Virus record (IMG/VR): IMGVR_UViG_3300044739_000020
Location: 1 to 43,397 of that record
Origin: a virus
Reading direction: 5' to 3' (one strand)
Length of the DNA stretch: 43,397 nucleotides
The position numbers and the translations under genes were made by a program. This document shows positions 20,803-43,397 of the stretch, piece after piece. The notes under the pieces were generated by a model. The model made no database searches. It had not been told where the DNA came from and saw nothing but the letters and a program-made list of their open reading frames with translations. Within the stretch, counting starts at the first letter, position 1. Each line of letters starts with the position of its first letter.

Positions 20803-22026
20803 TCAGACTACGTGGAGCTCATCGCCCGGCATAGCGTCGTATAGCGCCGCGTGACGCGCTTCTGCAGCACGTTCTGCAGCACGCCGCGCCGAGTGGACGT
20901 GGTCGGTGAGAGCCGTCCGTGCCGTCTCGAAGGTCTGAGACGAGAGGTGTGCGTACTTCTTGGCGGTCTCCCAATCGGAGTGGCCCATCAGCAGGGCCAG
21001 CTCAGCGATCGTCACGCCCTGCTGGAGGAGCCAGGAGGCGTACGTATGTCGCATGTCGTGCGGCCTCACGCGGTCCTCGATCCCGGCCATCTTCAGGGCG
21101 TGCTTGAATTGCCACCTGCCCCAGTCGTTGGACTTCAGAGGAGCCCCGCGAGCGGCGCGGAAAACCAGGTCGCCGGTGCACCGGCCAGCGATATGACGGA
21201 CTCCGCATGTCTTATTCCGCACTGGCGCGGCATGGTCACGCCAGTGGGTGAGCATCCGGACCAGTTCAGCCGTGAGCGGGACGTACCGCTGCTCGTTGTC
21301 CTTGGGCAGCGGGTCGATCACGTAGGCTTTCTGATCGTATTTCTCGACGACCTGGATCATTCCCCGATCCAGGTCGAGCCGGGACCAGTGCAGACCGGAT
21401 AGCTCGCCAAAGCGAAGTCCGGTCTGCACTGCGGTCCATACGATCAGTGCATTCGGGCCGTCCATGTAGAACGTGATCGCCTCGACCTCGTCCGGGGTCA
21501 GGAATCGCTCTAGGCCAACCGGCATGTCCGGGTAGGCGACGGTGGCGGCCGGGGAGGCCGCGATCCTCTTGTCGACGACGGCCGCGTTGAGCGAGGTCTT
21601 GAGGAGCATCAGCGCGTTGCGCACCACCCACACCGATGCGGGGGCCTTGCCCTTCGCGCGCTGCGCCTTGGTGGGGTTGGCCATCTCCTTCGCCCATCGG
21701 CTGACGTCCAACGCCTCGATGTCGCATAGCCGGACGTCGCCCCAGCGGTCCATGAGGTGGCAGTCCGCGGTCGACCGGTAGGTCTGATCCGTGGAGTAGG
21801 CCAGCGCCCGGGAGTCGTGCCACTCGTGGAACCAGTTCCGCCATGTGGTGCGACCGTCGCGCGGGTCGATGGCACCGGGCTTGGCGTGCTTGTCCTCCTC
21901 GATGGTCGCCGCACGTAGCGCCTGCTTTGGCTGGCTGTATGTGCCTGCCGAGAGCGGGACGATGTTGCCAGGGACGCGGTACAGGCCCTGGTACTTCCCG
22001 GATGGAAGTAGTTTGGTCCAGGCCAA
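20803..22026 (-). CDS. int: Tyrosine recombinase integrase
   Basis: From the TTG at 22026, preceded by AAAGGAG with 8 bases spacing, the product has 407 residues. The N-terminal AP2-like arm-binding part (residues 1-55) is followed by a SAM-like core-binding domain (about 60-160) and the catalytic domain. The active-site set is visible: R205 in TGLRFGEL, K242, H323 and R326 in RPHDMRHTY, H349 in LLMGHSDW and Y358 in AKKYAHL. It lies beside the tRNA-like attP and is transcribed toward it. The longer frame to 22176 runs through the neighbouring gene and lacks a ribosome site. Confidence 0.93.
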   Translation of the reverse strand: MAWTKLLPSGKYQGLYRVPGNIVPLSAGTYSQPKQALRAATIEEDKHAKPGAIDPRDGRTTWRNWFHEWHDSRALAYSTDQTYRSTADCHLMDRWGDVRLCDIEALDVSRWAKEMANPTKAQRAKGKAPASVWVVRNALMLLKTSLNAAVVDKRIAASPAATVAYPDMPVGLERFLTPDEVEAITFYMDGPNALIVWTAVQTGLRFGELSGLHWSRLDLDRGMIQVVEKYDQKAYVIDPLPKDNEQRYVPLTAELVRMLTHWRDHAAPVRNKTCGVRHIAGRCTGDLVFRAARGAPLKSNDWGRWQFKHALKMAGIEDRVRPHDMRHTYASWLLQQGVTIAELALLMGHSDWETAKKYAHLSSQTFETARTALTDHVHSARRAAERAAEARHAALYDAMPGDELHVV

Positions 22027-22040
22027 GGCGGTTTCTCCTT

Positions 22041-22322
22041 TCAGTTCAGGTGGTTGGATGGCCGCCGCTCGCCGCTCGATCTCAGCTTGGCGAGATCGTC
22101 GGCTGCCCGGCCGCGGTCCGCGAGGTCGTACAGGGCGGTGGTGATGGCGTCTCTGACCGACAGGCTGGCTGCCCATCCCCAGAGGACGGTGCCGATCGCG
22201 GAGACGACAACGACGTAGAGAATCGGTGGATCGCTCGCGATGATCGCGGCGAACACCAGAAGGCTGTCGATGAATGTGGCTGCGCCTGCGGTGGCGACTA
22301 CGCCGGTTTGGAGAGCAGACAT
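22041..22322 (-). CDS. Two-helix membrane protein upstream of the integrase
   Basis: The 93-residue product starts at ATG 22322 after GAGGAG. It has two membrane helices, about residues 7-28 (GVVATAGAATFIDSLLVFAAII) and 32-52 (ILYVVVVSAIGTVLWGWAASL), then a charged helical tail. The stop lies only 14 bases before the integrase start, so the two are probably co-transcribed. Membrane proteins in lysogeny modules often protect against superinfection, but this is inference from place only. Confidence 0.6.
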   Translation of the reverse strand: MSALQTGVVATAGAATFIDSLLVFAAIIASDPPILYVVVVSAIGTVLWGWAASLSVRDAITTALYDLADRGRAADDLAKLRSSGERRPSNHLN

Positions 22323-31625: not shown

Positions 31626-31948
31626 ACGCCCGCTCCCTTCCCGCCATCTACGCCGAGACCGGTCACCCTTCACGGCCGGAACCGGACTGGCACCACCGCG
31701 CCCGGTGCCGGTGGCTCAGGCCGCCCGACCTGTTCTTCCCCGTCCTGGGCCGGGGCTGCTCGGTGGCCGACCGGGCCGCCTACGCACGCCAGATCGAGAG
31801 CGCCAAGAAGGTGTGCGCCCAGTGCCCCGTCGTCGCCGAGTGTCTCGCCGAGGGGAAGGCGCAGCCCATCCCGCACGGCATCTGGGGCGGCGAACTGTTC
31901 GTCCGCGAGGACGACTACCCGTCGCGGCGCCGGAAGGAGGTGGCCTGA
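31622..31948 (+). CDS. WhiB-like Fe-S transcription regulator
   Basis: The 108-residue product starts at ATG in an ATGA overlap. It has the Wbl signature: C29, then C65xxC68 and C74 in KKVCAQCPVVAEC, and the GIWGG turn at 86-90, followed by a basic tail. An extra cysteine (C46) is present. These proteins bind a [4Fe-4S] cluster and touch the host sigma factor; they are nearly confined to actinobacteria and their phages. It may redirect host transcription or block a host Wbl. Confidence 0.9.
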   Translation: MNARSLPAIYAETGHPSRPEPDWHHRARCRWLRPPDLFFPVLGRGCSVADRAAYARQIESAKKVCAQCPVVAECLAEGKAQPIPHGIWGGELFVREDDYPSRRRKEVA

Positions 31949-31953
31949 CCCTC

Positions 31954-32754
31954 GTGAGCACTACCGGGGCGTTGATGCCGACCGGACGATACGAGTGGGA
32001 GCGTGTCGTCCGGCGCATCGTCATGCCGCCCAACATCAAGCTCCTGGCCTTCGCCATGGCCACGTACGCCGACCCGGACGGTAGCCGCGTGCGCCCCGGT
32101 GTGGACGTCCTGGCGGCCGTGGTGGGGCAGAGCGACAGCACCGTACGGCGCTCCCTGGCGGTGCTGCGCACGAAGCTGGGACTGCTCGACCAGACCACCC
32201 GGGGCGGCGGCCGCAACGGTCGCGGGAAGACCGCCGAGTACCAGTTGACCATCCCGGCAGACCTGTTGGACCGTGTCGATTTGCTGACCCCGGACGGGCA
32301 TCCGCCGGTCACTCAGGTGAACGGTCATTCCGTCAATTCACCGGTCATCCAGACGACCGGTCAAACCATCGGCACCCCTGTGGATAACTCTGAATCAGAG
32401 TTCACTCAGGTGACCGCTCAATCTGAGGCAAGCCCCGGGAATGACCGGTCACAGGAGACCGGTGAAAACGGAATGACCGGTCAAAAAACGGGAATGAGCG
32501 GTCATCTGGGTGACCAACTACCAATAGACCAACCACCTAAAGAGACCAACACTCGTCCCCCAGTACCAGCGCAACTCACGACCGCACGCGAACCGACGAC
32601 CCTCGACGACTTCCTCCCGCTGTCCAAGCCATCTCGCCCCGACCCCGGACCCAAGTGCGGCCACGGACTCGACGCCGGATGCGACGACACCGGCCAACCC
32701 CGATGCCCGCTCTGCCGCCGCGAAGCCCCCGCCGCCACCCGGGCCGCCTCATGA
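31954..32754 (+). CDS. Helix-turn-helix replication initiator-like protein
   Basis: The 266-residue product is read from GTG 31954 (an ATG at 31975 is possible). Residues 15-110 form a winged helix: NIKLLAFAMATYADPDGSRVRPGVDVLAAVVGQSDSTVRRSLAVLR, then LLDQTTRGGGRNGRGKTAEYQL. The middle (about 115-195) is a polar low-complexity linker coded by repeated TGACCGGTCA-like DNA. The C-terminus holds KCGHGLDAGCDDTG and CPLC, a zinc-type end. The layout of a DNA-binding front, a repeat-bearing linker and a tail is like lambda O. Confidence 0.72.
   Translation: MSTTGALMPTGRYEWERVVRRIVMPPNIKLLAFAMATYADPDGSRVRPGVDVLAAVVGQSDSTVRRSLAVLRTKLGLLDQTTRGGGRNGRGKTAEYQLTIPADLLDRVDLLTPDGHPPVTQVNGHSVNSPVIQTTGQTIGTPVDNSESEFTQVTAQSEASPGNDRSQETGENGMTGQKTGMSGHLGDQLPIDQPPKETNTRPPVPAQLTTAREPTTLDDFLPLSKPSRPDPGPKCGHGLDAGCDDTGQPRCPLCRREAPAATRAAS
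32305..32504. repeat. Iteron-like repeats inside the initiator gene (probable origin)
   Basis: About nine copies of the palindromic decamer TGACCGGTCA lie here, two exact (32442, 32474) and the others with one or two changes. They include 32318, 32338, 32354, 32411, 32456 and 32495, plus a half copy at 32305. The stretch to about 32575 is much less G+C rich than its surroundings. Repeats in an initiator gene with an AT-richer flank fit a replication origin. Confidence 0.65.
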
Positions 32755-33825: not shown

Positions 33826-34150
33826 GCGGATCAAGCGGGAACGAACGCGCGGATGGCGGATGCCCGAAGGGGCTGTGTACGTCGGGCGGCCCAGCAAGTG
33901 GGGCAACCCGTTCCGGCCCGGCCAGGTCATGTACCTCACCGGCCCCAAGGCGGGCCAGGTCGCCACCGTCGCGGACGTCGTCGAGATGTACCGCAACCGC
34001 ATCGTCCGGATGGGCGGCGAGGACACCCTCGCGCTGATCCGGACCGAACTCGGCGGCCGGGACCTCGCCTGCTATTGCCCGCTCGATCAGCCGTGCCACG
34101 CCGACGTGTTGATCGAACTCAGCAATCCGAACGCCCTGGAGGGCAAGTGA
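33818..34150 (+). CDS. DUF4326 family protein
   Basis: The 110-residue product has the full DUF4326 signature: RIKRERTRGWRMPEGAVYVGR, PSKWGNPF, and ACYCPLDQPCHADVL at the end. This family is widespread in actinophages and plasmids. Its role is not established; the CxC..C-H end suggests metal binding. The ATG lies 8 bases before the previous gene's end. Confidence 0.85.
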   Translation: MPERIKRERTRGWRMPEGAVYVGRPSKWGNPFRPGQVMYLTGPKAGQVATVADVVEMYRNRIVRMGGEDTLALIRTELGGRDLACYCPLDQPCHADVLIELSNPNALEGK

Positions 34151-34710
34151 AGAAGATCCCGACCCTCTTCCGCCGCGACCCGGAGGACATGGCGCGGATC
34201 CTGCGCGAGGTGCACCCCGACTGCCAATGGGTGATCGACGGCGAAGGCGTCGCCACCCGGAAGTACGACGGCACCTGCGTGATGTTCGACGGCGCTCGCT
34301 GGTGGACTCGCCGCGAGGTCAAGCCCGGCAAAGCCGAGCCCTCCGGGTTCGTCGCGATCGACCACGACGAGGCCACCGGAAAGACCGTCGGGTGGGAACC
34401 CGCCGAGCAGTCGCCGTGGTTGCCGTACCTTCGCGAGGCGATCGTGGCGGTCGGGTATCTGCCGCGCCCACCGAAGGGCACCTACGAGCTGTGCGGCTAC
34501 CGGGTCAACGGGAACCCGGAGGGCTTCGTCGGTCACGTGCTGATCCGGCACAGCGACGCCGTTGAGCTGGGTGACGTTCCCCGGGACTACGACGGCCTGC
34601 GGGTCCTCATGGCCGACTTCCCGCACGAGGGCATCGTCTGGCATCACCCAGACGGCCGGATGGCGAAACTCAAGCGGCGGGACTTCCGGAAGGCCGGGGA
34701 GGGCAAGTGA
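34147..34710 (+). CDS. RNA ligase-like nucleotidyltransferase
   Basis: The 187-residue product starts at GTG in an overlap. It carries the nucleotidyltransferase motifs: K39-Y-D-G (motif I), E114 in TYELCGYRV (motif III region), E161-G-I-V (motif IV) and MAKLKRRDF (motif V). The enzyme would adenylylate a lysine and seal nucleic acid. At this length it lacks an added OB or C-terminal domain, as in small phage RNA ligases that repair cut tRNA. A DNA nick-sealing role cannot be ruled out. Confidence 0.72.
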   Translation: MKKIPTLFRRDPEDMARILREVHPDCQWVIDGEGVATRKYDGTCVMFDGARWWTRREVKPGKAEPSGFVAIDHDEATGKTVGWEPAEQSPWLPYLREAIVAVGYLPRPPKGTYELCGYRVNGNPEGFVGHVLIRHSDAVELGDVPRDYDGLRVLMADFPHEGIVWHHPDGRMAKLKRRDFRKAGEGK

Positions 34711-42744: not shown

Positions 42745-43320
42745 ATGACCGAGCAGACCGAAGTCCAGGCCGACGGCGACGTTGACGTTGACGAGGATCA
42801 GAAGCAGGACCAGGGCGACGCGGAGCAACTCGGCGACGCCGGCAAGAAGGCGCTCGACGCCATGAAGGCCGACCGCAAGGCCGCGCAGATCGAGGCCCGG
42901 CAGGCCAAGAAGGCACTGGAAGTCCTCCAGGCGAAGCTGGATGCCCTGGAATCGGGCAAGGCTCCGGACGAGACCGCGAAGGCCATCGACGACGCCAAGC
43001 GTGAGGCCACCGAGGCGGCAACCGCCAAGGCCAACGCCCGCATCGTCCGCGCCGAACTCAAGGTCGCGGCCGCCGGGAAGCTCGCCGACCCCTCCGACGC
43101 GGCGGCGTTCATCGACGCGGATCAGTTCGATGTCGGCGACGACGGCGAAGTCGACACCAAGGAACTCGCCGACGCCATCGCGGACCTGCTCAAGCGCAAG
43201 CCACATCTGGCGGCCAAGCAGAAAGCCAGCTTCGGCCAGGTCGAGGGCGGACCCCGCGGATCGGGGTCCGCGCGCCCCAAGTCAATCCGCGAGGCATACG
43301 CCCGCAAGAACAGCGGTTGA
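42745..43320 (+). CDS. Scaffold protein
   Basis: The 191-residue product starts at ATG with GGGAG upstream. It is highly charged, with an acidic front (DGDVDVDEDQKQDQGD), a long coiled-coil stretch (about residues 45-110) and a basic end (RPKSIREAYARKNSG). It directly precedes the major capsid gene across the circular join. Such proteins guide shell assembly and are then lost. The last 50 bases recur at window positions 1-50. Confidence 0.85.
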   Translation: MTEQTEVQADGDVDVDEDQKQDQGDAEQLGDAGKKALDAMKADRKAAQIEARQAKKALEVLQAKLDALESGKAPDETAKAIDDAKREATEAATAKANARIVRAELKVAAAGKLADPSDAAAFIDADQFDVGDDGEVDTKELADAIADLLKRKPHLAAKQKASFGQVEGGPRGSGSARPKSIREAYARKNSG

Positions 43321-43397
43321 TCCGCAGGGAGTAACCCATGACCATCACCCTCGCGGACGCGATGAAGAACGCCGCGTCCGATGTGGACTACGCCGTC
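43271..43397. repeat. Assembly overlap, right copy (identical to 1-127)
   Basis: This stretch repeats the window start exactly. It includes the first 60 bases of the major capsid gene (ATG at 43338), which here runs off the window end. See the left copy for interpretation. Confidence 0.93.

Follow-up and report, generated by a model that had tools for sequence, protein, structure and literature searches.

Results

Genome context and the initiator gene

The window, that is, the whole stretch of DNA analysed here, is the viral record IMGVR_UViG_3300044739_000020, which comprises 43,397 bases with a G+C content of 69%. Its first 127 bases (1-127) are identical to the last 127 (43271-43397), an exact direct terminal repeat which suggests that the record, despite its database class as linear, probably represents the complete genome in a circular assembly of 43,270 bp. 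The phage carries a tyrosine integrase gene on the minus strand (20803-22176), genes for terminase, portal and head protease at 38-43 kb, and an early module encoding an exonuclease, RecT, a WhiB protein, the initiator, a zinc-finger protein, a RusA-like resolvase and an RNA ligase; its hosts are of high G+C content and probably actinobacterial. The RNA ligase family gene (phrog_14301) occupies positions 33853-34710, and a stretch of 77 bp at 34044-34120 shares 86% identity with gene 73 of Gordonia phage Bock; the phage collection contains no other near match at the DNA level to the 20-43 kb half of the genome. Across the whole record no match was obtained to DnaB_C (PF03796), IstB/DnaC (PF01695), lambda P (PF06992), AAA_25 (PF13481) or D5_N (PF08706), and neither a loader P nor a DnaC/DnaB-like gene, as found beside O in lambdoid O/P modules, was detected. 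No ParA-type ATPase gene was recognised in the genome.

The initiator gene (31954-32754, plus strand) encodes a protein of 266 amino acids and probably starts with the GTG codon at 31954. The predicted protein consists of an N-terminal winged helix-turn-helix domain (HTH_36-like), a disordered linker and a C-terminal zinc-ribbon-like CxHG...C..C motif. Structural modelling by AlphaFold2 yielded a confident winged helix (pLDDT 92-97 over most of residues 11-110), predicted disorder from about residue 113 to 225 (pLDDT mostly near 50 or lower), and a small ordered C-terminal domain at about residues 230-260, which bears the CxHG...C..C motif. The match of the window protein to HTH_36 (PF13730; E 0.002, 18.4 bits) stays below the gathering cut-off of 25 bits, and 13 of 22 family members match this domain at E 0.01 or better. 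The window protein also matches the O-like PHROG replication initiation families phrog_270 and phrog_391, taken alone only weakly (phrog_270, E 1e-4). A PHROG replication initiation protein is matched by 17 of the 22 family members (best E 5e-11), and O-like initiators are matched by 14. A profile search against the PDB returned generic winged helices of ArsR/MarR-like folds only, and the weak top PDB matches of a fold search include a Rep-DNA complex and initiator structures. Judged by these comparisons, the protein resembles the phage O-like and replication initiation families, although the similarity is weak for the window protein by itself.

An iteron array within the initiator gene

The part of the gene which encodes the predicted disordered linker, 3' of the codons for the DNA-binding domain, harbors an array of repeats (32302-32504, plus strand). 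Nine TGACCGGTCA-like half-sites were identified, arranged as dyads and single sites. Seven of them, starting at positions 32318, 32338, 32354, 32411, 32442, 32474 and 32495, have at most one mismatch and fall within 187 bp; two weaker copies start at 32456 (two mismatches) and 32302 (three mismatches). A previous sequence-only reading of this DNA had described about nine copies in roughly 190 bp, coding for the linker of a helix-turn-helix protein, and both statements hold, with nine copies in 203 bp and a winged helix followed by predicted disorder. Genome-wide, TGACCGGTCA with up to two mismatches is found 32 times compared to 30.6 expected and, thus, is not in excess; it is the clustering that is unusual. 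The densest 203-bp cluster of copies with at most one mismatch holds the seven present here, as opposed to a maximum of two in 200 Markov simulations, and of 862 stretches of 300 bp in the record, the one following the helix-turn-helix codons ranks first in repeat content. The clustering of the array is beyond chance. One isolated iteron-like AGACCGGTCA lies about 300 bp ahead of the initiator gene, at 31656-31665 within the WhiB gene.

As the encoded linker is polar and of low complexity, and as some relatives contain repeated peptides such as TGQ or TTGHPSPVDNS, the repeats might be regarded as a repetitive protein linker under selection at the protein level only. We consider this scarcely credible. 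The copies are distributed over all three reading frames of the initiator gene and, therefore, cannot be explained by a repeated peptide. Permutation of synonymous codons within the gene, by which the protein was kept, did not reproduce the seven copies in any of 5000 trials (mean 1.3, maximum 4). The explanation is further contradicted by out-of-frame arrays in a group of relatives and by fixed wobble positions in an embedded DnaA box, both of which are described below.

The array might also represent an operator that controls transcription instead of replication, in which case the protein would be a repressor or an autoregulator. The winged-helix fold is common in repressors, the PDB matches are ArsR/MarR-like, TGACCGGTCA occurs in papers on DNA-binding sites of a Thermus transcription factor, and autoregulation may well coexist with origin function. 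However, the sites begin about 350 bp into the gene, away from the promoter; seven to nine copies are combined with a DnaA box and the stretch of lowest G+C content in the genome; and the family matches are to replication initiators and not to repressors. Control of transcription as the sole role of the array thus appears unlikely. Even less probable is a parS-like partition centromere or a stoperator-like array. parS sites typically consist of short repeats in arrays, and some temperate actinophages carry parABS (PMC7157519), but a ParA-type ATPase is missing from this genome and the prophage, given the tyrosine integrase, is probably integrated. In addition, the motif is not dispersed across the genome as in a stoperator-like array.

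Half-sites are arranged in longer dyads

Alignment with relatives revealed that the window array is collinear with those of the closest group (L037-L040, L044, L050 and L053), in which the half-sites form dyads of the type TTGACCG(C/G)(T/A)CACC-yrGG-TGAGCGGTCAA with a length of about 26-33 bp and with single half-sites added in the 3' part. By this alignment, the first unit in the window (32300-32329) contains the half-sites at 32302 and 32318, and the second (32336-32365) those at 32338 and 32354, with a distance of 16 bp in both cases. In the third unit (32393-32422) one half is degenerate, and the good half-site TGACCGCTCA is located at 32411. Single half-sites follow at 32442, 32456 (weak) and 32474 (32440-32485, plus strand), and the last unit (32493-32517) consists of TGAGCGGTCA at 32495 and a partial second half. 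The homologous half-sites of the relatives, TTGACCGCTCA in L039 and L044, TTGACCGGACA in L037, L038 and L040, and GGAACTCCGCTCA in L050, are not palindromic. The sequence-only reading had taken the palindromic decamer as an indication of dimer binding and as a difference to many iterons. Neither argument can be maintained: since the matching half-sites of relatives lack the symmetry, that of the decamer says little about dimers, and the iterons of lambda are themselves inverted repeats to which O binds as dimers (PMC7466680), so that symmetry provides no contrast to lambda. The alignment rather indicates that the decamer makes up just one half of a longer dyad instead of being the binding unit, and that its palindrome in the window is probably incidental.

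Viral contigs were also scanned for two exact copies of the decamer, which returned 16 mixed loci. In five of these, the decamer pairs (L003, 10610-10654; L005, 8334-8421; L008, 1636-1679; L016, 8574-8616; L017, 1417-1460) are located in the linkers of replication initiators that belong to other families and have other base compositions. This suggests that half-sites of the GGTCA type have been put to use repeatedly. The other loci look like operators, other repeats or chance occurrences. Two low-G+C viral contigs carry six 18-bp tandem units of TTGACCGGYCATGACGGG (L007, 12268-12367; L015, 7170-7269), which in L007 start just past a stop codon and outside any helix-turn-helix gene.

The array is conserved in position but not in sequence

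Single-sequence searches of viral and genome contigs did not identify relatives. By tblastn, relatives were found in Mycobacterium abscessus prophages, M. smegmatis phages, a 10.9-kb element of M. aichiense and a linear plasmid of Micromonospora. A scan with an alignment of two sequences as query (an alignment of five was too diverse) contributed seven loci from genomes and 19 viral ones, whose N-terminal domains show 33-67% identity. The resulting set consists of 29 non-duplicate loci from Nocardia, Amycolatopsis, Mycobacterium, the Micromonospora plasmid and viral contigs, or 30 including the window. A repeat array directly follows the winged-helix codons in all 29 relatives. In 28 of them no other 300-bp stretch of the locus is as rich in repeats, and in the remaining one the array ranks third. 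The half-sites are specific to the lineage and include TGACCGGTCA, TTGACCGGACA, TTGACCGCTCA, GGAACTCCGCTCA, GTCTGGGGATCA, ACGACCGGACA, CACCGGAAC and CACGGGACAT. In ten Nocardia-type loci (L020, L030-L034, L043, L046, L048 and L049), the initiator is only 111-123 amino acids long, its frame being closed by a stop codon within or at the first repeat. The remaining array is thus positioned outside the initiator reading frame, which argues that the DNA itself is conserved. The deposited annotation of the Micromonospora plasmid CP108834 has no gene over most of the array. The initiators of the M. smegmatis phages IdentityCrisis and WST1 (L023/L024) are 92% identical, and their repeat number differs by 45 bp. 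As judged from these comparisons, the behaviour of the array in relatives is that of DNA-binding iterons and unlike that of a protein repeat.

The 10.9-kb Mycolicibacterium phage WillG (L025) encodes a serine integrase, a major capsid protein and an initiator of this type, whose iterons read GGGACAT, and is perhaps a phage satellite. A contig of Nocardia sp. CY41 carries two identical origin loci (L034 and L035) at a distance of 57.5 kb, perhaps belonging to tandem prophages.

A conserved DnaA box resides in the middle of the array

An exact DnaA box, TTATCCACA, is located on the minus strand at 32379-32387, between the second and the third dyad; no second exact TTRTCCACA exists in the genome, and the position of the box is conserved in relatives. 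An exact box occurs within the array in 22 of the 30 loci compared to 0.09 expected from base composition, a count from which exact duplicates were removed but in which the loci are still related to each other and hence do not represent independent events. The flanks of the 30 loci (231,798 bp) do not contain a single exact TTRTCCACA. Where the box is part of the coding sequence, it is read as Pro-Val-Asp-Asn, and all 25 PV[D/N/Y]N motifs are encoded by CCT GTG NAY AAC. T-GTG-NAY-AA is constant at the wobble positions, and changes of the amino acid are confined to the N of TTRTNCACA, strongly indicating that the nucleotide sequence is under selection. A box within iterons is the sequence arrangement of a DnaA-assisted iteron origin, and the putative box embedded here points to a plasmid-like origin of this kind.

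Eight of the 30 loci lack the exact box, three of which have a relaxed TTRTNCACA and five neither, and DnaA may therefore not be essential across the family. This would be in line with an origin at which the initiator acts alone, similar to those of lambda or pSK41, and at which the DnaA box is an accessory or regulatory element. In pSK41, primase is recruited through the C-terminal domain of Rep, and staphylococcal plasmids are not known to carry DnaA boxes (PMC5703833). On the other hand, the box is strongly conserved in 22 of 30 loci, and a phage helicase or loader is not recognisable. We regard an origin served by the initiator alone, which overlaps with the explanation that we prefer, as possible but less probable than one at which host DnaA participates.

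Low G+C content and conserved elements at the 3' side

The genome-wide minimum of G+C content in 200-bp windows is found at 32379-32578 (53% compared to 69% for the genome), which bears out the lower-G+C stretch reported in the sequence-only reading and predicts an easily melted tract adjacent to the repeats, as at the lambda origin. The last iteron is followed by a C+A-rich tract (ACCAACTACCAATAGACCAACCACC..., 32505-32560, plus strand) with 52% G+C (19 A, 21 C, 8 G and 8 T), which is kept in position and composition in relatives and is a candidate unwinding or single-strand element. Further downstream, comparison with relatives identified a conserved 21-bp element, CGCAACTCACGACCGCRCGCG (32569-32589, plus strand). 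Its general form, CGCAACTCACGACCGC(R)CGCG, is present with 0-2 mismatches in several loci; in the window, the 21-mer matches 32569-32589 with one mismatch and the next best site with five. In the Nocardia-type loci the element is located outside the initiator frame and, thus, is conserved at the DNA level. The exact DnaA box, the longer dyads and this element had all escaped the sequence-only reading.

Discussion

Based on sequence comparison, replication of this phage very probably starts within its own initiator gene, at an iteron array with a DnaA site in the middle. We are confident, short of certainty, that this temperate phage has its origin at 32302-32590 and that both the initiator and host DnaA act there. 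The lambda-like intragenic origin proposed in the sequence-only reading is strengthened by the matches of the initiator family, by arrays at the same place with changing half-sites and by arrays out of frame. The GC skew, suggested there as a check, has no clear origin signal at the array and is uninformative. We infer the following model of the events at the origin, from binding and melting of the DNA through the need for DnaA and the loading of the helicase to the mode and direction of replication and the role of the linker. The winged-helix domain of the 266-aa protein would bind the approximately nine half-sites in dyads and single sites, and host DnaA would occupy the box in the middle of the array. 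The resulting nucleoprotein complex might then open the adjoining C+A-rich stretch of lowest G+C content, upon which the host DnaB helicase would be loaded via DnaA and/or the initiator and theta replication would start. As no phage helicase, loader or ParA gene is recognisable, host DnaA probably helps to load the helicase. The linker encoded by the array, disordered according to the structural model, is probably dispensable.

It might further be speculated, with about even chances, that these loci constitute a widespread and so far undescribed class of actinobacterial phage origins, characterised by iterons within or immediately downstream of the initiator gene, a host DnaA box recruiting the helicase, a C+A-rich tract and a 21-bp element, in which initiator and half-sites change together to give many mutually compatible replicons. 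The literature searched, in which subscription journals are sparsely covered, contained no description of TGACCGGTCA iterons or of an actinophage origin of this type, and neither a DnaA box in such an array nor this initiator family in actinobacterial phages. Replication has been poorly characterised in actinobacterial phages, as pointed out for those of mycobacteria (PMC7157519). For about thirty loci in phages, prophages, one plasmid and an element of satellite size, the comparison predicts where replication begins; phages of M. smegmatis and prophages of M. abscessus are among them. If the proposal is true, the loci would provide a natural series of initiator/half-site pairs for studying the evolution of DNA specificity as well as replicons, possibly compatible with one another, that could serve as genetic tools in actinobacteria.

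Comparison with known systems

The origin proposed here shares features with several known systems. Lambda ori in gene O and the ori of Stx phages likewise depend on an initiator with an N-terminal DNA-binding domain and on inverted-repeat iterons within its own gene, an unwinding-prone tract adjoins the iterons, and O-like PHROG matches occur in the window family. In contrast, lambda has four 19-bp iterons and its own helicase loader P, whereas in the window about nine half-sites surround a DnaA box, the C-terminus of the initiator is zinc-ribbon-like, and a search of the whole record for a P homologue gave none. Iterons and a DnaA box are combined in one origin in P1 oriR, F, pSC101 and RK2, where host DnaA assists (PMC5703833). 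In this respect the window is similar to these replicons; they differ in their initiators, which are of the Rep_3 type, and in that the iterons are located outside the rep coding region.

Single helix-turn-helix initiator genes of the phages Miko, Rachaly and Jeeves, together with short flanks, have been demonstrated to confer autonomous replication in M. smegmatis, and an origin upstream of or within repA was proposed by the authors (PMC7157519). In Miko, the single actinophage replicon type with experimental proof that was examined here, the linker of repA does not contain a repeat array, a point against the proposal, and repeats are found upstream instead; these TCGAATCCTCGAG-type repeats (L028), at about -230 to -170, are for the most part not included in the published minimal replicon, which consists of repA plus 171 bp. 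The RepA_N plasmid pSK41 and the hybrid pPR9, both of staphylococci, resemble the window in the winged helix-turn-helix N-terminus and in repeats within the rep gene. In pSK41 the N-terminal domain of Rep binds Rep boxes in the central part of rep and the linker encoded by the origin is dispensable, and the hybrid initiator of pPR9, with a PF13730 (HTH_36) N-terminus, supports autonomous replication (PMC5703833). They differ from the window in having four Rep boxes, another C-terminal domain and no known DnaA boxes, and in being low-G+C Firmicute plasmids. Thus, the general architecture is known from lambda O and from pSK41/pPR9, while the DnaA box within the array and the occurrence of this family in actinobacterial phages, judging by the literature searched, appear to be the new parts.
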